A stretch of DNA of 33,089 nt from a virus. The position numbers were made by a program, and so were the translations under genes. Shown in pieces: positions 530 through 10,369 of this stretch. Under the pieces are notes generated by a model. That model was not told the DNA's origin, ran no database searches, and saw only the letters and a program-made list of their open reading frames with translations. Each line of letters opens with the position of its first letter. Positions within the stretch are counted from its first letter, which is position 1. The stretch spans positions 1 through 33,089 of IMG/VR virus record IMGVR_UViG_3300043449_000593; one strand, written 5' to 3'.

Positions 530-2080
530 ATGGCAAACGGGGGAAAGAAAGAAATAAAGGGATGGCCACCGCGTTATCTAAGTGAAGTTTCAGCAGCCGA
601 TTACAAGAGAAGCCGTGGCGAGAATACAATTGACTTCGCCGAAGCCCTTTGCAAAATTACAAAAGATTCGGTTGCTGGTAATGCTGGTGAGCCTTTAGTC
701 TTTCGTGATTGGCAAAAAGAATTAACAAGGAATTTGTTTGCAGTCAAAGCCGATGGCAAGTTAAAACATAAAGTTGCCCTTATCGGCCTGCCCCGCAAGC
801 AAGGAAAATCTGCTTGGTTGTCTGCACTTGCTCTTGAGCATTTAGTGTTAGGACCACAAGGCGGGGAAACATATTCGTGTGCAGCCGAAAAGGAACAAGC
901 AAAAATTGTGTTCGGCACTGCCAAACGAATGGTGGAGATGCAGCCTGAACTCTTAGAGCTTCTTGATGTATATCGAGATGCAATCTATAACCCAAAGACC
1001 GGCTCGGTCTATCGGGCGCTCTCTGCCGAAGCATTTAGCAAAGAAGGTCTTTCCCCTACCTTCGTTGCATTTGATGAGTTACACGCACAACCTAATCGTG
1101 AACTCTTTGATGTTATGTCACTTGCGATGGGTGCAAGAACTGAACCTTTAATGGTGGCAATTACAACTGCCGGTGTTAAAACAGATGTCAGCGGCAAGGA
1201 TTCAATCTGCTATTCATTGTATGAATACGGCAAGCGAGTCGCATCGGGCGAAGTTGATGATCCATCATTTTTCTTTTCTTGGTGGGAAGCAAATCCTGAT
1301 TTAGATTACAGAACACCCGAAGCGTGGGAATCTGCAAATCCCGGATACGGTGACATTTGCAGTAGTGATGACTTTGCCAGCGCAGTTCTTAGAACTCCCG
1401 AAGCTGAATTTCGCACCAAGCGCTTAAACATTTGGACATCCACATCCGATGCCTGGCTACCTCACGGCGCTTGGGATTCAATCGCCGATGAGAAGGCAAT
1501 TGGCGAAGGCGCCAAGGTTGTCATCGGCTTCGATGGAAGTTTTAATGGTGACTGCACTGCCATTGTGGCAGTATCAGTTGATGAAGTTCCCCACATTATG
1601 CCATTGGCAGTGTGGGAAAAACCTGACGAAGCAGGCGCCGATTGGCAAGTGCCAGTCCTAGATGTTGAAGATGTTTTGCGTGATGCCTGCAAGAAGTACG
1701 AAGTTATGGAAATTGCTTGCGACCCATACCGATGGGCTAGAACATTTCAGGTGTTAGAAGAAGAAGGTTTGCCGGTTGTCACATTCCCGCAGACTGCATC
1801 TCGAATGACACCTGCGACAACTCGCTTCTACGAAGCAGTTGTGAACCGCAGCATCACCCACGATGGCGATGTAAAAATGGCAAGGCACGTTGGCAATGCA
1901 ACCCTTCGTGTGGATCAACGAGGTTCTCGCTTAGCAAAAGAAAAGCGAGGTTCAACCCGCCGTATTGACTTGGCGGTGTCTGCAGTAATGGCTTTAGAGA
2001 GAGCTGCTTGGTGGCAATCTCAAGGTGGGTATCTACCCGCAATCTTTGACCCTTGGAATATGGAGGAACCTAATGCGTGA
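530..2080 (+). CDS. terL: Terminase large subunit
   Basis: A 516-residue packaging ATPase and nuclease that pumps DNA into the prohead and cuts the concatemer. The ATPase domain (about 60-300) has a Walker A-like LPRKQGKS near residues 85-92 and a Walker B FDE near 180-182. The C-terminal RNase H-like nuclease has candidate acidic residues in GFDGS (about 333), ACDPY (about 398) and RRIDLAVSA (about 483). Length is normal for phage terminases. It sits between small terminase and portal, and its last codons overlap the next small gene. Confidence 0.93.
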   Translation: MANGGKKEIKGWPPRYLSEVSAADYKRSRGENTIDFAEALCKITKDSVAGNAGEPLVFRDWQKELTRNLFAVKADGKLKHKVALIGLPRKQGKSAWLSALALEHLVLGPQGGETYSCAAEKEQAKIVFGTAKRMVEMQPELLELLDVYRDAIYNPKTGSVYRALSAEAFSKEGLSPTFVAFDELHAQPNRELFDVMSLAMGARTEPLMVAITTAGVKTDVSGKDSICYSLYEYGKRVASGEVDDPSFFFSWWEANPDLDYRTPEAWESANPGYGDICSSDDFASAVLRTPEAEFRTKRLNIWTSTSDAWLPHGAWDSIADEKAIGEGAKVVIGFDGSFNGDCTAIVAVSVDEVPHIMPLAVWEKPDEAGADWQVPVLDVEDVLRDACKKYEVMEIACDPYRWARTFQVLEEEGLPVVTFPQTASRMTPATTRFYEAVVNRSITHDGDVKMARHVGNATLRVDQRGSRLAKEKRGSTRRIDLAVSAVMALERAAWWQSQGGYLPAIFDPWNMEEPNA

Positions 2081-2216
2081 GAAAATCACAACCGTTGCAG
2101 AGATGCTAGGCGCAGTTTTAATCTCTCTTGGTGTTGGAATTGTTTTCAGTTGGGGCATCTCCCTTATCGTTGCCGGCTTGTTAGTAATTGCTGGCTCCTA
2201 TTTGGCGGCTGAATGA
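2073..2216 (+). CDS. Small two-helix membrane protein
   Basis: A 47-residue hydrophobic protein of unknown function. After a short charged start (MREKITT) two hydrophobic stretches (about residues 11-25 and 28-44) are broken by SWG, suggesting a membrane hairpin. ATG at 2073 follows a GGAGGA Shine-Dalgarno (2062-2067), overlaps the end of the terminase gene by 8 bases, and its TGA overlaps the portal ATG, so it looks coupled between them. Small membrane proteins at this place occur in other actinophages, but I assign no role. Confidence 0.6.
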   Translation: MREKITTVAEMLGAVLISLGVGIVFSWGISLIVAGLLVIAGSYLAAE

Positions 2217-3430
2217 GCATCATCAAACGTGGCCTAACAGGTCGCTATCCCCAATACAACAACTACGTTGCTCCTTTGTCGCAGCTCTATGGACAAACCA
2301 ACGTAACATCTGCAGCAGGTGAACGCATTGATGAGTGGAGCGCCTTTGGTGTCTCTGCAGTCATTAGCGCAATCTCATTGCTTGCCGACTCAGTAGCATC
2401 AATGCCACTTCGCACTTTCAAGTTTGTTGATGGCAATCGCCAGGCCGTTGCGCTGCCTGACATCATTAAGCAACCTGACATTGACTCCAATGAATATGAG
2501 TTAGTTCATCAAATTGTGGCTTCAATGGCTTTGCACGGCAATGCTTATGTCCACCTTGACCGCGACAAGCGCGGTGAAATCATCGGCCTTGTGCCATTGC
2601 ACGTTTATCAAATGCAGGTGTTGCCTACAGGTGATCAGACAGGTCGCAAGTATCTCCACCTTGGTAACGAGATTCCAGCCGAGGATTTGATTCATATGCG
2701 TTGGTTCACACCACCACAATCACTTGTCGGTGTCTCACCTTTAATTCAATCGCGTAACCTCATCGGACTTGCGATGGCAATGGATCGTCACCTTGGGCAA
2801 TTTTATGCCGAGGGTGCTACGCCTTCATCTGTTCTTGAGACAGACCAAAAATTAACCAACGACCAGGCTCAAATTATCCGTAACACCTGGGAGGCTACAC
2901 ATAGACGTCACCGCCGCCCTGCGGTGCTCTCAGATGGCCTCAAGTGGCGTCCTATCACTACTTCAGCAGCCGATAACGAGATGATTGCAACGCGTGAGCA
3001 GCTCATTAGAGATATTGCTCGCGTGTTCCGTATTCCTGCTCACCTTATCCTGGCTTCAGGTGGAGACACACAGACATATCAGAATGTTGAGCAGGCATCT
3101 TTGAACTTCTTGACTCACACAATCACACCTTGGTTGCGCCGAGTTGAGATTGGTTTATCTCGCGTTCTACCCGATGGCACCGACATCGCCTTTGACACGT
3201 CATCGTTGCTTCGCACCGATGCCTTAACACGGGCACGAGTCAATACCCTTAACGTTCAAATGGGTGCTCGCACTCCGAATGAGGTACGCCAAATTGAAGG
3301 CTTGGAGCCTTACGATGGCGGCGATACTTTTAATCAGGCATTAGCAGGCACCGTCACGGCCGGTGGCGATGTTGAGCCTTTAGGTTCGGATTCAGATACA
3401 TCGGTTCCATTGATGGGAGTCATTGAATAA
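2213..3430 (+). CDS. Portal protein, HK97 type
   Basis: A 405-residue portal, the dodecameric ring at the capsid vertex through which DNA passes and to which the tail attaches. It has HK97-portal hallmarks: an N-terminal VSAVISAISLLADSVASMPL segment, a LHGNAYVH segment around residue 104, a RWFTPP segment, and a C-terminal VARVFRIPAHLI-like helix around residues 268-282. ATG overlaps the preceding TGA (ATGA), and its stop overlaps the next ATG by one base. Length is typical. Confidence 0.92.
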   Translation: MSIIKRGLTGRYPQYNNYVAPLSQLYGQTNVTSAAGERIDEWSAFGVSAVISAISLLADSVASMPLRTFKFVDGNRQAVALPDIIKQPDIDSNEYELVHQIVASMALHGNAYVHLDRDKRGEIIGLVPLHVYQMQVLPTGDQTGRKYLHLGNEIPAEDLIHMRWFTPPQSLVGVSPLIQSRNLIGLAMAMDRHLGQFYAEGATPSSVLETDQKLTNDQAQIIRNTWEATHRRHRRPAVLSDGLKWRPITTSAADNEMIATREQLIRDIARVFRIPAHLILASGGDTQTYQNVEQASLNFLTHTITPWLRRVEIGLSRVLPDGTDIAFDTSSLLRTDALTRARVNTLNVQMGARTPNEVRQIEGLEPYDGGDTFNQALAGTVTAGGDVEPLGSDSDTSVPLMGVIE

Positions 3431-4785
3431 TGGCTGAAATGTATCGAGCACCAAAAGCAGTGCAAGAAGAAGCACAAAAGATTCTGTCACCTGTGGCAGA
3501 TGCAGTTCGTAACAATCAACTCTTGACCTTAGAGCAAGTTGCTGAAATCCGAAGCACTTGGGCATCTACTGAAGGTCGAATTTGGGCAAAAAATATCTGC
3601 GACAAGGTTGCCACTCGTGCATCTGTCGTGACTACATCCGAGGAGGATGCAATGGCAATCAATGAGGCAACCCCTGACCTAAGCGAAGAATTAACTGAAC
3701 TTCTTGCAGATGTTGTTACCTTTTACCTTCGCGCACACGGCGCACATTGGAATGTAATCGGAACAGACTTCGCCGAGTATCACGCATTGTTCGCTTCAAT
3801 TTATGATGACGTTTATGACAGTGTTGATCCACTTGCTGAAAATATCCGCAAGATTGGTATTCAAGCACCGTTCCAAATGTCACAGTTTATGGAACTTCGC
3901 TCAATCTCAGATGGCGAACTTTCAACCGATGCTCGCACGTTAGCACTTGACCTACTAGCAGCCAATGAGATTGTTATTCGTGGAATTGCAGATGCTTTTA
4001 CTTGCGCTACTGAATACAACGAACAAGGCATTGCAAACTTTCTTGCTGACCGCCTAGACAAGCACCAAATGTGGCGTTGGCAGCTTTCATCATCACTTGG
4101 AATGGAAGTTGCACCAAGTGATTTAACCGTTGAAAGCGTTGAAGAAGTAGCTGAAGAAGGAGCAGAGATGGAAATGAAGTCTGCAGATAAAGAATTAGTT
4201 GAAGCTCGCAAATCAATTGCAACGGCAGAACGCATTACAATGCAGGCTGAAGTTCGCACAATGGACACCACAGATGGCTCATTACGCATTGGTGGATATG
4301 CTGCAATTTTCAATTCTGAAGCAACTGGCTTGAATTTCCGCGAAGTTATTGCACCGGGCGCCTTCAAGCGCACACTTGCAACCGACAATCCTGTGTTCTT
4401 GCTTATCAATCACGATATGGAAGGCTTGCCACTTGCATCAACTCGCTCAGGCACTCTTACATTGACTGAAGATGAAGTTGGATTGCGTATGGATGCAGTT
4501 CTTGATCCGCTAAATCCAAGAGCGCAAGAACTGGCCTCAGCCCTACGCCGTCAAGATGTGGATAAGATGTCATTTGCTTTCACCGTTGAACCCGGTGGCG
4601 AAGTTTGTGAAGAAGGCTTGCGAACACTGACAGATTTGCATCTCTATGAGGTTTCAATTGTGACATTGCCTGCTTACGATTCAACAACTGTTGGTATGCG
4701 TAGTGCAGAAGAAGAAAACGAAGATTTAGAATTGCGCAAGAAGTTGCTTATTCTAAAAAATGCTCAGCGCAAACTGCGCAAGTAG
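3430..4785 (+). CDS. Dps/ferritin-like domain fused to HK97 prohead protease
   Basis: A 451-residue fusion. Residues 1-74 are a small helical segment of unknown role. Residues about 78-225 form a Dps-type four-helix domain with the full ferroxidase pattern: H106, H118, D133 and E137, in the same spacing as E. coli Dps (H, +12 H, +15 D, +4 E), inside AHWNVIG and PLAENIRKIG. An acidic linker (about 226-265) leads to a U35 prohead protease domain (about 266-435) with candidate catalytic H328 (NHD) and S381 (MSFAF). The protease should mature the capsid and ride inside the prohead. Strong internal Shine-Dalgarno/ATG pairs at codons 75 and 247 could make Dps-protease and protease-only forms. Domain calls are firm; iron oxidation or DNA protection in the capsid is inference. 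Confidence 0.88.
   Translation: MAEMYRAPKAVQEEAQKILSPVADAVRNNQLLTLEQVAEIRSTWASTEGRIWAKNICDKVATRASVVTTSEEDAMAINEATPDLSEELTELLADVVTFYLRAHGAHWNVIGTDFAEYHALFASIYDDVYDSVDPLAENIRKIGIQAPFQMSQFMELRSISDGELSTDARTLALDLLAANEIVIRGIADAFTCATEYNEQGIANFLADRLDKHQMWRWQLSSSLGMEVAPSDLTVESVEEVAEEGAEMEMKSADKELVEARKSIATAERITMQAEVRTMDTTDGSLRIGGYAAIFNSEATGLNFREVIAPGAFKRTLATDNPVFLLINHDMEGLPLASTRSGTLTLTEDEVGLRMDAVLDPLNPRAQELASALRRQDVDKMSFAFTVEPGGEVCEEGLRTLTDLHLYEVSIVTLPAYDSTTVGMRSAEEENEDLELRKKLLILKNAQRKLRK
3640..3654 (+). promoter_or_regulatory. Candidate internal ribosome binding site before the Dps domain
   Basis: GAGGAGG (3640-3646) lies five bases before an in-frame ATG (3652, Met75). Starting here would give a 377-residue Dps-protease protein without the N-terminal segment. 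The motif also encodes Glu-Glu-Asp, so coincidence is possible. Confidence 0.4.
4157..4170 (+). promoter_or_regulatory. Candidate internal ribosome binding site before the protease domain
   Basis: AAGGAG (4157-4162) lies five bases before an in-frame ATG (4168, Met247). Starting here would yield a 205-residue protease, about the length and extent of a stand-alone HK97 prohead protease. Confidence 0.45.
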
Positions 4786-4860: not shown

Positions 4861-6204
4861 ATGTCTTTGACATCAAAGCTCAAGGAGCAGCGGGATGCAG
4901 TTGCAGTCGAAGCAGATACTCTGCTTGCAGGCGATGTAACAACTGAAATCCTAGATTCTGTATCCGCAAAGCACGATGAAATTGCAGCACTCGATGAGCG
5001 CATTGCAAAGTCAGAAGCAGTAGAAGCACGTTCAGCAGCAATTGCTGAATCACGCAAAGAATCAGGTGTAAAGCCATTTGTTGGTGGAACAACTGTTACA
5101 CGCGAAGCAATGACATACGACAAAGATGGTCGTAACTCATTTGTTCGCGATATGATTAACGCAACAATGCGTAATGATTCATCTTCTTGGGAGCGCCTAA
5201 ACCGTCACCAAACAGAAGTTTCAGTTGAAACACGCGACATCTCACGCACTGATACTGCAGGTGGAGATTTTGTTCCTCCAATCTACCTAATCAACGAATA
5301 CGCAGAGTTTGCCCGCGCAGCTCGTGTGACCGCTGATCTTGCGACAACAATGGCACTGCCGCTCGGCACTGACAGTATAAATATTCCGGCAGTCACGACC
5401 GGAACTCAGGTCGCTTTCCAATCAAGCGACAACTCTGCTACAAACACACGCGATATGGTCACAAGCACTGTTACTGCGCCAGTTCGTACAATTTCAGGCT
5501 ACGAGAATGTTTCAATTCAGCTCGTAGAACAATCACCACTTGCAGGCGGTCTTGATCGCTTAGTATTTGGTGACTTGATGAAGGACTACGCACTTGCACT
5601 TAACACCGCAGTTACAGGTAACGGCGATGGAACTTCAGGAACACTCAAGGGTTTCATTAACCTTGGTGCAGATACTACAAACGGTATCCCAACAACTTGG
5701 ACTGAAACAACACCAACTGCAGTAAACGGATTGCAAGCAATCTCAAAGGCCATTAGCAAGGTTGTAACAAACCGCTACCAGGCAGTTGAAGCAATTGTTA
5801 TGCACCCATCAATGTGGTACTGGTTCGCTTCAAGCACAGATGGAAATTCACGTCCAATCATCGTGCCTGTCGGCGCAGGTCCATTCAATGCAAACGGTGT
5901 AGTTACTGCTCCGGGAGCGCCAGCAGGACTCGTTGGAACAATCCACGGAGTACCTGTTTATGTTGATGCAACACTTCCAAAGACTTATGGAGCTGCTACA
6001 AATCAGTCCCCAATTCTTGTTGGTAAGTTCTCAGATTCATACCTATTTGAATCAGGCGTTAAGACTCGTGTTCTTCCAGATGTCTTGTCAGCAAACCTAA
6101 CAGTTCGCTTCCAGGTTTATGGATATATGGCACTTGCTCACCGCTATGCGAAGGCAGTTTCAGCAATTTCAGGAACTGGTACAGTCGCACCTTCAGGCTT
6201 CTAG
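4861..6204 (+). CDS. Major capsid protein, HK97 fold
   Basis: A 447-residue capsid subunit. Residues about 1-70 are a charged, alanine-rich coiled coil like the HK97 delta (scaffold) domain removed by the prohead protease; the shell domain follows from roughly residue 125. Typical segments include DFVPPIYLINEYAE, an E-loop-like FQSSDNSATNTRD region, and a C-terminal LTVRFQVYGYMALAHRYAKA strand-helix. It follows the protease gene after a 75-base spacer. A weak AAGAGAAA precedes the ATG. Codon choice looks uniform, as expected for a highly expressed gene. A terminator-like hairpin follows. Confidence 0.93.
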   Translation: MSLTSKLKEQRDAVAVEADTLLAGDVTTEILDSVSAKHDEIAALDERIAKSEAVEARSAAIAESRKESGVKPFVGGTTVTREAMTYDKDGRNSFVRDMINATMRNDSSSWERLNRHQTEVSVETRDISRTDTAGGDFVPPIYLINEYAEFARAARVTADLATTMALPLGTDSINIPAVTTGTQVAFQSSDNSATNTRDMVTSTVTAPVRTISGYENVSIQLVEQSPLAGGLDRLVFGDLMKDYALALNTAVTGNGDGTSGTLKGFINLGADTTNGIPTTWTETTPTAVNGLQAISKAISKVVTNRYQAVEAIVMHPSMWYWFASSTDGNSRPIIVPVGAGPFNANGVVTAPGAPAGLVGTIHGVPVYVDATLPKTYGAATNQSPILVGKFSDSYLFESGVKTRVLPDVLSANLTVRFQVYGYMALAHRYAKAVSAISGTGTVAPSGF

Positions 6205-6277: not shown

Positions 6278-6421
6278 ATGCTTAGTTATCTTGACGGGTT
6301 GAAAGTTGCTCGTGATTTAGCAAAAAGGGAACAGTACCAAACACTTGATGGGCTAATTGAAGCCCTTGAAGAACGACAAGTGGAAACAACTGCTTTAAGT
6401 GTTGATGTGGAGACACGATGA
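6278..6421 (+). CDS. Small hypothetical protein before the glycosyltransferase
   Basis: A 47-residue, charged, probably helical protein (starts MLSYLDGLKVARDLAKREQY). No family recognised. The ATG is preceded by AGGGGGAG (6265-6272) at 5 bases, and its TGA overlaps the next ATG (ATGA), so it is probably translated and coupled to the glycosyltransferase. It is the first gene after the capsid terminator. Confidence 0.55.
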   Translation: MLSYLDGLKVARDLAKREQYQTLDGLIEALEERQVETTALSVDVETR

Positions 6422-7107
6422 AGCCTAAAGATAAAGTTTGCATTGCATTTCCACATTCAGGAACGGTAAACACAGAATTTGCAACAAATCTAGTTGAAAT
6501 CAATCGAAAGCGATTAGATCGTATTGATTCAATTGTAGGCATTGGCAATATCTCACTTTTAACTCGCTCACGCAACGTAATCGTTAAAAATTTCCTTGAT
6601 GAGACTAATGCAGAGTGGCTTTTGATGACCGACACCGACCAAATCTTGTCAGTTGAAGCCTTCGACAAGCTAATAAATGCAGCTAATGTTACCGAAAGAC
6701 CGATAGTTTCAGCCCTTATATTTGCTGCATTTTGGACTGACACTGACGAATTGCGCCCTGTACCTGTCATTTATCAAGACACCGACAACGGCCCAATGCC
6801 CTGGGATGCCTATCCCGACAATCAAATTGTCGAAATTGCGGCAGCCGGAACAGGCTGCTTGCTCATTCATCGCTCGATTTTGGAGAAAATGAGACTAGAA
6901 GCGACAGAGAATCAAGGCACTGATTGGTGTTGGTTCATTGACGGCGCTATTGGCGGGCGATGGTTTAGTGAAGATTTACTTTTCTCTCGCAAGGTGCGTG
7001 CAATGGGTTACAAAATTCACGCACATACAGGTGCAATCCTGCCTCATCGTAAAGAATTTTGGCTTGACGATAGACATCACAAGCCTTTCCACATCCAAAA
7101 CTCTTAA
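6418..7107 (+). CDS. Glycosyltransferase-like protein, GT-A fold
   Basis: A 229-residue soluble protein resembling GT-A (GT2-like) sugar transferases found in phages. LTRSRN near residue 48, a nucleotide-sugar/metal-binding DTDQ (residues 72-75, a DxD motif), a GTGCLLIHRSILEKM segment near 142, and SEDLLFSRKVRAMGY near 182 match the usual order. It lies between capsid and the large fibre, so a plausible role is glycosylation of a virion protein such as the capsid or fibre; the acceptor is inference. A large hairpin follows the stop. Confidence 0.75.
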   Translation: MKPKDKVCIAFPHSGTVNTEFATNLVEINRKRLDRIDSIVGIGNISLLTRSRNVIVKNFLDETNAEWLLMTDTDQILSVEAFDKLINAANVTERPIVSALIFAAFWTDTDELRPVPVIYQDTDNGPMPWDAYPDNQIVEIAAAGTGCLLIHRSILEKMRLEATENQGTDWCWFIDGAIGGRWFSEDLLFSRKVRAMGYKIHAHTGAILPHRKEFWLDDRHHKPFHIQNS

Positions 7108-7177: not shown

Positions 7178-10100
7178 GTGGCAACTTCATATCCTGACGG
7201 ACTTGATAACTTCACAAATCCAACTGCATCTGACACGTTAGATTCAGCCACAGTTCCTCACGCTACTCAACACGCTAATACAAATGATGCGATTGAGGCT
7301 ATTGAAGCTGAACTTGGTACTACTCCTAAAGGATCAAAGGCATCTGTTAAGGCCCGCCTTGACTCCGTGGATGCTAACGCAATCACAACGTCATTGCCTC
7401 TTACATCTTCAGGCACCGTTGGCGGTTCTAACTTAATTGTTGGAATTAACTCATCATCTGCCGATACCGCAAACTTCGTTGTGCGCCGTGATGCAAACGG
7501 CGAGTTCATAACAGGCGCAGTAATAATTGACACAACAAAGACACCAACAAGCGCCCCCGGCAAGTTGTATTGGGATGGCGGTGGCACCGTCAATCTTGGC
7601 CTTGCAGGTGGCAATGTTGATGTTGCATTAGGTGAAAACCTTGTTTCCTATGTGACAAATGCCGAAGCCACAACCTTGGCCATTGGCGAGGTTGTTTATG
7701 TTTATTCATCTGTTGGCAATCGCATTTCTGTTAAACGTGCATCTAATCTAACTGAAGGATCATCTTCAAAGACACTTGGAATTGTTGCCGAATCTATTGC
7801 AGCAAATAACCCTGGCTTTATTATTGTGCGCGGTATTGTTGAAAAACAAACACTTAGCGGTTATACCGAAGGTGCAGCTTTATATCTTGGTGCAACTGCT
7901 GGAACATTTACTGCAACTAAGCCATCTGCCCCTAATCACCTTGTTGCTCTCGGTTGGGTGGTTCGTGCCAATAACGGCAACGGGCAAATTTATGTCAATG
8001 TGCAAAATGGTTTCGAGTTAGAAGAGCTGCACAATGTTGCCATTTCAAGCGTTGCTAATGGTCAGGTTCTTACTTATGATGCAACTACTGAACTTTGGAA
8101 AAATGAGGATGCAGCATCTCCTACTGTGCCAGCCACACCTACGGCTGAAGGTGTTGTGTATGGCAAAACTGAACTTGCTGGCAGTGACACAGAAAGTACC
8201 GCGTTAGGCAATCAAGCTCTTTTGAGCAACACTATTGGTTCGGCAAATGTTGCCATTGGTGTAAATGCTTTGACAGATAATACCGAAGGTGGGCTGAATA
8301 TAGCCATCGGTTATGATGCTCTTGCCAACAATACTGTTGGCGGTGGCAATACTTCCATCGGTGCTTATACATTATCAACTAACACAACGGGTGAGAATAA
8401 TACTGCAATTGGACTTGGTGCGCTTTTATCTAACACTTCAGGCAGCTTTAACTTTGGGCTTGGCAACGATTCCTTACATAACAACACAAGTGGTGGTAAC
8501 AACACCGCCATTGGTACCAATGCCGCTTATAGCAATACTACTGGTCAATACAACATTGGAATTGGTGGCAGCGCATTAGCGGCAAACTTAACTGGCAATA
8601 ATAACGTTGCAATAGGTAGAGGTTCTGGTGCAGCAGCACTTGGAACTGGCAATCTCTTTATTGGCTACAATGCAGGTTCAACTTATACCGGCAGCAACAA
8701 ACTCTACATCGCCAACAACTCTACAACTTCACTAATCATTGGAGACTTTTCGGCACAAACACTTATTGTTGATGGAACACTTACTGCCGATTCATTCATT
8801 GTGCCAAGCGGTACATCTACACAATTCCTTAAAGCTGATGGATCAGTAAGCGAAAGTAATGCCACACCGACAACCACAGGTGTTGTTTATGGATTGACTG
8901 AAAATGATGACACTCAAAATGGAAACACTGCGCTTGGCAACTATGCGTTAAATGACAACACAACTGGTTACAACAATGTTGCAGTTGGTAATGGCGCACT
9001 GTTAAATAATACAACTGGTGGAGACAATGTTGCCGTAGGTGCTTATACTGCGCTATTTAATGAAACTGGCGATGATAATGTTGCTATTGGCAATAGTGCA
9101 TTGAGTTTGAATGTTTCAGGTATTCAAAATGTTGCTATTGGTAAATCGGCTCTTGTTTCAAATACTGCCAATGGCAACACTGGTATTGGCTATTCAACTT
9201 TGAGTGCAAATACAACAGGAACCCAAAACATAGCACTGGGTGCCGCCGCTTTGAATTCAAATATATCAGGCAGTAGTAATACAGCCGTTGGCGTTGATGC
9301 TGGCCAAGCATCTTTAGGTTCAGGCAACGTATTTGTAGGCTATCGTGCAGGTTACAGTGAAACTGGCTCCAATAAGCTCTACATTGCCAACAACTCCACA
9401 ACATCACTCATCGTTGGTGACTTCTCAGCCAACACCCTGACCGTCAATGCCGCCGTCACCGCCACCTCTTATGCAGTACCAAGTGGCACTTCATCTCAAT
9501 TCTTAAAAGCTAATGGATCAACGGACTCAACCACCTACGCACCGATTGCCTCACCAACCTTCACTGGCACTGTCACCATCCCTGCCGGCTCATCCATCAG
9601 CGGTGTCGCCTACCTCGCCACCGCCAACACCTTCACATCTACGCTCAACGGCTTTGGCGGTGCCTACTCATCCACCGCACTTGCCGGCTACAACATTCTG
9701 CATGTATCACAGCGCGCATTGTTCATCAACGACAATGTCGACTTCAACTATGCCACTGGCGCTTACTATGCAAGCGGTTGGAAGTACGCTGGCACAGCGG
9801 CAGCAACGAATCTGAACAATGGCGGTGGCAAGTTCGATTTCTTGACCGCTGCTAGTGGTACGGCGGGATCGGCACTTACCTTTGTTTCTAGGTTGCAACT
9901 ACTGAACAACGGCCAGTTCGTACTCAATGGGTTCGGTGCTGGTGTTGTTGGAATGGTCATCAAGGGCGCAGTCTCTCAGACTGCCAACCTTCAAGAGTGG
10001 CAGAACAGTGCTGGAACGGTTTTAAGTTTGGTGGATTCAGGTGGACAACTTCGCGCACCAAACATTGGAATTGGTGGCACTTCAGTAGGTATTGCTTATG

Positions 10101-10369
10101 TGCGTTTAAGTAATGCAGCTGGAGATACTTCAGCAACGACAACAGTATTCAGGGGAATTGCCTCTCAGACAGGCGATTTCTTGCGATTCCAAAACTCAAC
10201 TCCCACCACTCTCACCGCAATTACCGCCGCAGGCACAATCAACTTTGCATCAGGCAATACATCTGCAACTGCAACTGCTGGAGCTATTACTGCCCCTGCT
10301 TTGGTGCAGGGTTACATCACAATGCAAGTGGCAGGCACAACCGTGAAGGTTCCTTACTATGCAAACTAA
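7178..10369 (+). CDS. Large fibre protein with YadA-head-like repeats (head or tail fibre)
   Basis: A 1063-residue structural fibre. Residues about 1-150 are an N-terminal attachment region. About 150-290 match a module common in phage fibres (NLVSYVTNAEATTLAIGEVV to QNGFELEELH). Two tandem blocks follow (about 330-520 and 570-750), each holding roughly 17-residue repeats of the NNTAIGxxAL type, like trimeric autotransporter heads, closed by GSNKLYIANNSTTSLI and VPSGTSxQFLK. The C-terminus (about 790-1063) has two SQTxxxxxxQNS units and ends VKVPYYAN. GTG start with AAGGAG 4 bases upstream. Position between capsid and neck genes is unusual for a tail fibre and permits a head-fibre role. Trimeric and glycosylated state is inference. 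Confidence 0.82.
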   Translation: MATSYPDGLDNFTNPTASDTLDSATVPHATQHANTNDAIEAIEAELGTTPKGSKASVKARLDSVDANAITTSLPLTSSGTVGGSNLIVGINSSSADTANFVVRRDANGEFITGAVIIDTTKTPTSAPGKLYWDGGGTVNLGLAGGNVDVALGENLVSYVTNAEATTLAIGEVVYVYSSVGNRISVKRASNLTEGSSSKTLGIVAESIAANNPGFIIVRGIVEKQTLSGYTEGAALYLGATAGTFTATKPSAPNHLVALGWVVRANNGNGQIYVNVQNGFELEELHNVAISSVANGQVLTYDATTELWKNEDAASPTVPATPTAEGVVYGKTELAGSDTESTALGNQALLSNTIGSANVAIGVNALTDNTEGGLNIAIGYDALANNTVGGGNTSIGAYTLSTNTTGENNTAIGLGALLSNTSGSFNFGLGNDSLHNNTSGGNNTAIGTNAAYSNTTGQYNIGIGGSALAANLTGNNNVAIGRGSGAAALGTGNLFIGYNAGSTYTGSNKLYIANNSTTSLIIGDFSAQTLIVDGTLTADSFIVPSGTSTQFLKADGSVSESNATPTTTGVVYGLTENDDTQNGNTALGNYALNDNTTGYNNVAVGNGALLNNTTGGDNVAVGAYTALFNETGDDNVAIGNSALSLNVSGIQNVAIGKSALVSNTANGNTGIGYSTLSANTTGTQNIALGAAALNSNISGSSNTAVGVDAGQASLGSGNVFVGYRAGYSETGSNKLYIANNSTTSLIVGDFSANTLTVNAAVTATSYAVPSGTSSQFLKANGSTDSTTYAPIASPTFTGTVTIPAGSSISGVAYLATANTFTSTLNGFGGAYSSTALAGYNILHVSQRALFINDNVDFNYATGAYYASGWKYAGTAAATNLNNGGGKFDFLTAASGTAGSALTFVSRLQLLNNGQFVLNGFGAGVVGMVIKGAVSQTANLQEWQNSAGTVLSLVDSGGQLRAPNIGIGGTSVGIAYVRLSNAAGDTSATTTVFRGIASQTGDFLRFQNSTPTTLTAITAAGTINFASGNTSATATAGAITAPALVQGYITMQVAGTTVKVPYYAN
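8197..8710 (+). repeat. YadA-head-like repeat block 1 in the fibre
   Basis: About ten degenerate units of about 51 bases (17 residues), core pattern NxAIGxxALxxNTTG, ending in IGYNAG and GSNKLYIA. The DNA copies have diverged, so the period shows best in the protein. Confidence 0.75.
8914..9395 (+). repeat. YadA-head-like repeat block 2 in the fibre
   Basis: A second set of about nine units like block 1, preceded by the same type of header (PTTTGVVYGLTEN versus PTAEGVVYGKTEL) and closed by the same GSNKLYIANNS tail. This indicates duplication of a whole module. Confidence 0.75.

Follow-up and report, generated by a model that had tools for sequence, protein, structure and literature searches.

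Can a tailed phage carry a ferritin-like protein into its head by joining it to the protease that matures the capsid? The question is raised by one gene in a 33,089-base virus record (IMG/VR IMGVR_UViG_3300043449_000593), analysed over its whole length and referred to below as the window. According to the original prediction, this gene joins a Dps-type domain to an HK97 U35 protease, and the product might bring iron-oxidising or DNA-protecting Dps units into the virion or act as a scaffold. The analysis indicates that the fusion is real, conserved and recurrent, and apparently undescribed.

A Dps domain and a prohead protease in one reading frame

The gene is a single open frame of 451 codons with zero internal stops. 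Its ATG and the stop codon of the portal gene overlap at 3430, and it lies between the portal and major capsid protein (MCP) genes, in the order terL-portal-[fusion]-MCP (Table 1). The MCP has its own N-terminal segment of about 100 residues where the HK97 delta scaffold sits, as judged by sequence inspection. Directly 3' of the capsid gene is a glycosyltransferase-like gene (window 6418-7107; PHROG_34859, E 6e-32), and window 7178-10369 encodes a 1063-aa protein with many repeats of the 'NTAIGxxAL..NT.G..N' type that matches virion structural and tail spike PHROGs.

Table 1. Coordinates of the fusion gene, its parts and its neighbours in the window
Feature	Position	Strand	Evidence
Terminase large subunit	530..2080	+	Pfam/PHROG
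Portal protein	2213..3430	+	Pfam/PHROG
Dps-S78 fusion gene, 451 aa	3430..4785	+	ORF, Pfam, PHROG
N-terminal helical region, residues 1-80	3430..3669	+	Alignment, AlphaFold2 model
Dps (ferritin-like) four-helix domain, residues 81-225	3670..4104	+	Pfam, PHROG, PDB match, model
H106, ferroxidase ligand position (E. coli Dps H51), invariant	3745..3747	+	Alignment
H118, ferroxidase ligand position (H63), invariant	3781..3783	+	Alignment
A122, place of the fifth ligand (D67), non-acidic here	3793..3795	+	Alignment
D133, ferroxidase ligand position (D78), invariant	3826..3828	+	Alignment
E137, ferroxidase ligand position (E82), invariant	3838..3840	+	Alignment
Low-confidence acidic linker, residues 226-266	4105..4227	+	Model, composition
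S78/U35 prohead protease domain, residues 273-427	4246..4710	+	Profiles, alignment, model
H328, conserved protease His, 40/40	4411..4413	+	40-sequence alignment
S381, conserved protease Ser, 40/40	4570..4572	+	40-sequence alignment
HK97-fold major capsid protein	4861..6204	+	Pfam/PHROG

Both halves of the protein exceed the Pfam gathering score: Ferritin (PF00210) at residues 86-223 (E 1.2e-12; 48.4 bits, cut-off 24.5) and Peptidase_S78 (PF04586) at residues 273-427 (E 1.2e-36; 126.8 bits, cut-off 21). PHROG profiles identify a phage Dps at residues 82-224 (PHROG_3636, E 6e-23) and a head maturation protease at residues 230-438 (PHROG_80). The protease also matches NCBIfam TIGR01543 (108.5 bits, cut-off 59), and the protein scores below the NCBIfam Dps equivalog cut-offs. 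Candidate catalytic residues of the protease are H328, S381 and E407, the latter kept in 39 of 40 aligned sequences.

Structure prediction and superposition bore out the predicted Dps bundle. The AlphaFold2 model of the monomer has a mean pLDDT of 71.9, with values of about 80-95 in the bundle, where helices 84-108, 114-141, 168-195 and 199-223 form the four-helix bundle and 150-156 forms a short BC helix. The nearest solved structures are all of the Dps family, and Listeria innocua Dps is the best (Z 22.6, rmsd 1.6 Å, 150 residues). The top match in a PDB sequence search is also a Dps, PA0962 (8ff9, E 5e-20). A chance helical match was rejected on the basis of this Z score and E value and of the invariant ligands. 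The joining of a Dps domain to an HK97 U35 protease is supported by Pfam and PHROG, and its Dps part also by the PDB match and the superposition.

Four ferroxidase ligands are invariant and the fifth is mostly lost

The canonical Dps ferroxidase site lies between subunits and has five ligands (H, H, D/E, D, E). The prediction that all four ferroxidase residues are present was right for the residues named, as H106, H118, D133 and E137 are all there, in the register of a Dps. The site itself is incomplete, since A122 stands where the fifth ligand (E. coli D67, Listeria D47) would be. In the alignments of the PDB search, this place holds E in PA0962 and in V. cholerae Dps.

All four residues are invariant in a 40-sequence alignment, and equivalents of D133 and E137 were found in 135/135 distinct domains matching the spacing pattern, a pattern that itself requires both His and that only two fragments, both truncated, failed. 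The fifth-ligand place is variable among relatives (N, Q, L, A, G, S and others). Glu was found there in 2 of 79 Dps-S78 proteins, 8 of 20 fusions in which Dps follows an XkdF-like protease, the one S78-Dps protein (1/1) and 8 of 20 stand-alone phage Dps. Because an acidic residue is found in only a minority of relatives, and Ala122 occupies the position here, full di-iron chemistry is not assured. The idea of an iron-oxidising Dps is thus weakened, one of five ferroxidase ligands being absent both here and in most close relatives. The strong constraint on the other four ligands argues, however, for a metal role of the Dps part.

Compared with relatives L002 and L001, the Dps part has a dN/dS of 0.10-0.11 and the protease one of 0.09-0.10, against 0.30-0.31 in the N-terminal region. 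The Dps part is under purifying constraint equal to that of the protease.

The fusion is found in many uncultured phages

Full-length relatives in IMG/VR show 55-86% identity, and the same fusion is found on dozens of independent contigs. A join or assembly error was discarded for this reason: many independent contigs carry the fusion at that level of identity over its full length. In relatives L003-L006 a longer version of about 129 aa replaces the N-terminal helical region, and the linker varies from 49 to 283 aa among relatives, often with an Hva1_TUDOR domain.

A scan of IMG/VR with a Dps profile yielded at least 557 confirmed relatives. When 178 Dps ORFs were classed, in a sample whose loci overlap in part and which is biased toward the queries, 144 also encoded a recognised head protease in the same frame, 23 were short and stand-alone, 10 were uncertain or cut, and 1 was joined to something else. 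Synteny in the first 120 loci was overwhelmingly terL-portal-Dps/S78-MCP. We conclude that Dps-head protease fusions are common to many uncultured phages.

Only two relatives of this Dps subtype were found among 84,980 prokaryotic species genomes, both Dps-S78 fusions on short MAG contigs (labelled Betaproteobacteria and Actinomycetota). Host contamination was rejected in view of this near absence, and the subtype, marked by the motif AHGAHWN, is almost virus-only as far as sequence searches can tell. A tblastn search of isolate phages (INPHARED) returned no fusion; the matches were protease halves and four weak Dps matches in other records. In UniProt (BFVD), full-length relatives go unremarked under the name 'Prohead protease' (e.g., A0A6J7WIS1, 46% over 458 columns). 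The design had been put forward as one without a described counterpart, and the searchable full-text literature, which lacks most subscription papers and preprints, yields no Dps-prohead protease fusion.

Dps occurs in several arrangements and as one of several modules

Dps and head proteases are combined in more than one way. The arrangements can be summarized as follows:

(i). Dps precedes the S78 domain in the window and in most relatives. In L163-L165 a HAD phosphatase precedes both (HAD phosphatase-Dps-S78; L164 was domain-checked).

(ii). Dps follows S78 in L047, and follows an XkdF-like S78 protease in L009, L011 and L121-L141, where the Pfam S78 match is above cut-off; 'XkdF-like' is our own label for a divergent S78 type. 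A model of one protein with this reversed order (L126) has low overall confidence (63.7), but in it a mainly beta domain is followed by a clearly defined Dps bundle.

(iii). Dps follows a PHROG_3270 protease in L142. Dps is also at the end of a 1766-aa phage protein that resembles a polyprotein and matches portal proteins and head proteases (L159:633-5930).

(iv). Dps stands alone. In L170 a few bases separate the stand-alone gene from the portal gene before it, in L179 it overlaps the end of a gene that matches head proteases, and in L173 it comes about 0.5 kb after the terminase gene. Its neighbours gave no head-gene match in L149, L162, L167, L177 and L182. Fusion is not obligatory, as free-standing phage Dps genes exist.

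On a Dps tree, at least 8 changes among arrangements are needed against a minimum possible of 7; therefore, the arrangements are clustered on the tree. Because its deep branches are weakly supported, the argument for multiple origins rests on the different proteases and on the reversed order.

In a search made with the protease only, Dps was found in 22 of 67 complete XkdF-like ORFs and in 11 of 72 complete S78 ORFs. The S78 proteases that lack Dps often have long N-terminal extensions with HAD phosphatase, DUF5824, TUDOR or Cys-rich, weakly HiPIP-like modules. Since these relatives carry other modules in the same region, Dps appears to be one of several exchangeable modules, and the region seems to behave as an accessory-domain site.

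Some of these modules were observed beyond the Dps fusions. Of 304 prohead protease ORFs, 14 have a Cys-rich pattern, C-x2-C-x(8-18)-C-x(9-15)-C, that resembles HiPIP iron-sulfur motifs, and some of these also have Dps; the background is 48 in 1909 ORFs. Protease ORFs with the Cys-rich module include those of L308, L291, L325, L310, L317, L324, L327, L335, L119, L154, L184 and L280; Pfam HIPIP is matched only weakly (L317, E 0.0045, below cut-off). A HAD-superfamily domain (acid phosphatase-like or PNKP-like) is found at the N-terminus of S78 prohead proteases in L295, L310 and L164. Hva1_TUDOR (PF11160) is frequent in prohead proteases, where it separates Dps from the protease or comes after the latter (L009, L011, L019, L034, L324 and many others). 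DUF5824 (PF19141) is found in head-region proteins L168:4977-7019, L317 and L288, together with Dps in L168.

Is Dps carried into the prohead?

The reading we favor, with a probability of about 0.5, is that the gene encodes a working HK97-type prohead protease with an N-terminal Dps passenger, which is brought into the head and becomes a virion-internal protein. HK97-type proteases are enclosed in the prohead, where they cut the capsid protein and themselves, and the fragments leave. Dps, as part of the same chain, would enter the assembling head and would likely assemble there through its conserved dimer and ferroxidase interface. During self-processing and capsid processing, cuts in the flexible linker may leave Dps oligomers in the shell with the genome; the acidic linker, of low confidence in the model, is a plausible cut region. 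A Dps 12-mer measures about 90 Å, and would be too large to exit through the shell pores. Retained oligomers might bind iron or oxidise it and use up peroxide close to the packaged DNA; alternatively, they might act once delivered to the host. Entry into the virion and retention there are inferred from the recurrence of the joining with several protease types and orders and from Dps genes inside head modules; oligomerisation, release by cleavage and metal chemistry are likewise inferred.

A broader view, held more tentatively, is that prohead proteases of many uncultured tailed phages may be general carriers of swappable modules (Dps, HiPIP-like Cys, HAD phosphatase, TUDOR) into the capsid, the Dps version placing an iron-handling ferritin cage inside the virion.

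Alternatively, the Dps bundle may be a structural module for oligomerisation or scaffolding that sets the number and position of proteases in the prohead, metal binding being a leftover or structural. The Dps fold normally forms 12-mers and here adjoins the protease, one ferroxidase ligand is lost, and the N-terminal region near Dps is helical. We consider this explanation unlikely, however, as none of the four metal ligands varies among the complete domains examined, the MCP has a segment of its own in the delta scaffold place, and separate Dps genes exist. The scaffold role suggested originally is also weakened by related S78 and XkdF-like proteases that manage without Dps, and module exchange is more in keeping with a protease that acts as a carrier than with an essential scaffold.

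Slightly less probable still is that Dps acts in the infected cell rather than in the virion, lowering free iron and peroxide, with fusion to an abundant late head protein as a convenient route of expression. A role of this kind has been proposed for the stand-alone Dps of gut phages (PMC8008677). It would leave unexplained, however, both the repeated joining to a head protease in several arrangements and the presence of Dps genes inside head modules.

Cellular Dps proteins bind DNA, and a Dps predicted to lie inside the head might organise DNA there as an internal protein, condensing or shielding the packaged genome; this is very improbable, as the Dps domain is acidic (9 K/R vs 23 D/E) and its flanks are non-basic (N-terminal region, 9 vs 12; linker, 4 vs 12). 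DNA binding by Dps is carried by Lys/Arg-containing tails and usually requires Lys/Arg-rich ones (PMC9321382). Such a tail, a feature of many but not all Dps, was found in neither the N-terminal region, the Dps domain nor the linker, and the proposal of DNA protection by binding loses strength accordingly.

Relation to known systems and significance

The virion-internal passenger that we favor has partial counterparts. With bacterial Dps of the PF00210 family (PA0962, Listeria, E. coli) the fusion shares the four-helix bundle, the BC helix, the HWN motif and H/H/D/E ligands at an inter-subunit site; it differs in sitting in a prohead protease, in the mostly lost fifth ligand, in the lack of a basic tail and in its AHGAHWN subtype. 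With the HK97 gp4-type protease (Peptidase_S78, MEROPS U35) it shares the domain, the conserved His, Ser and Glu and the portal-MCP gene position, but adds a ferritin-like passenger and, in many cases, TUDOR or another module. Encapsulins that hold ferritin-like cargo, such as Myxococcus EncA with EncB and EncC (PMC9321382), have in common an HK97-fold shell, here predicted to enclose a ferritin-family protein. The features of an encapsulin (a cargo-loading peptide, a shell without phage packaging genes) are lacking, however: the window has terminase and portal genes besides the protease, and the Dps-type cargo is covalently fused to the latter, with neither a targeting peptide nor a separate cargo gene.

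Phage-encoded Dps is known from Lactobacillus phages and 'Gratiaviridae' (PMC8008677), but as separate enzymes with a proposed role in the infected cell and no described protease fusion. In Vi01-like phages, the ferritin-family protein gp217 was detected in phage particles (PMC10892097); it is, however, the product of a separate gene, tied by its authors to the tail and to entry (the 'ferrojan horse'). What is new is the joining of Dps to head proteases in several arrangements, together with separate phage Dps genes beside portal or protease genes and Dps-less relatives with other modules.

If the proposed reading is true, phage heads would hold ferritin-like proteins in much the way that encapsulins do, and a link would exist between two branches of the HK97 fold. 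Packaging of iron or redox enzymes would have a direct route, and perhaps their injection too, which would bear on the stability of virions exposed to oxidative stress and on iron carriage by phages. The prohead protease might then be regarded as a natural covalent tag for loading cargo into capsids.
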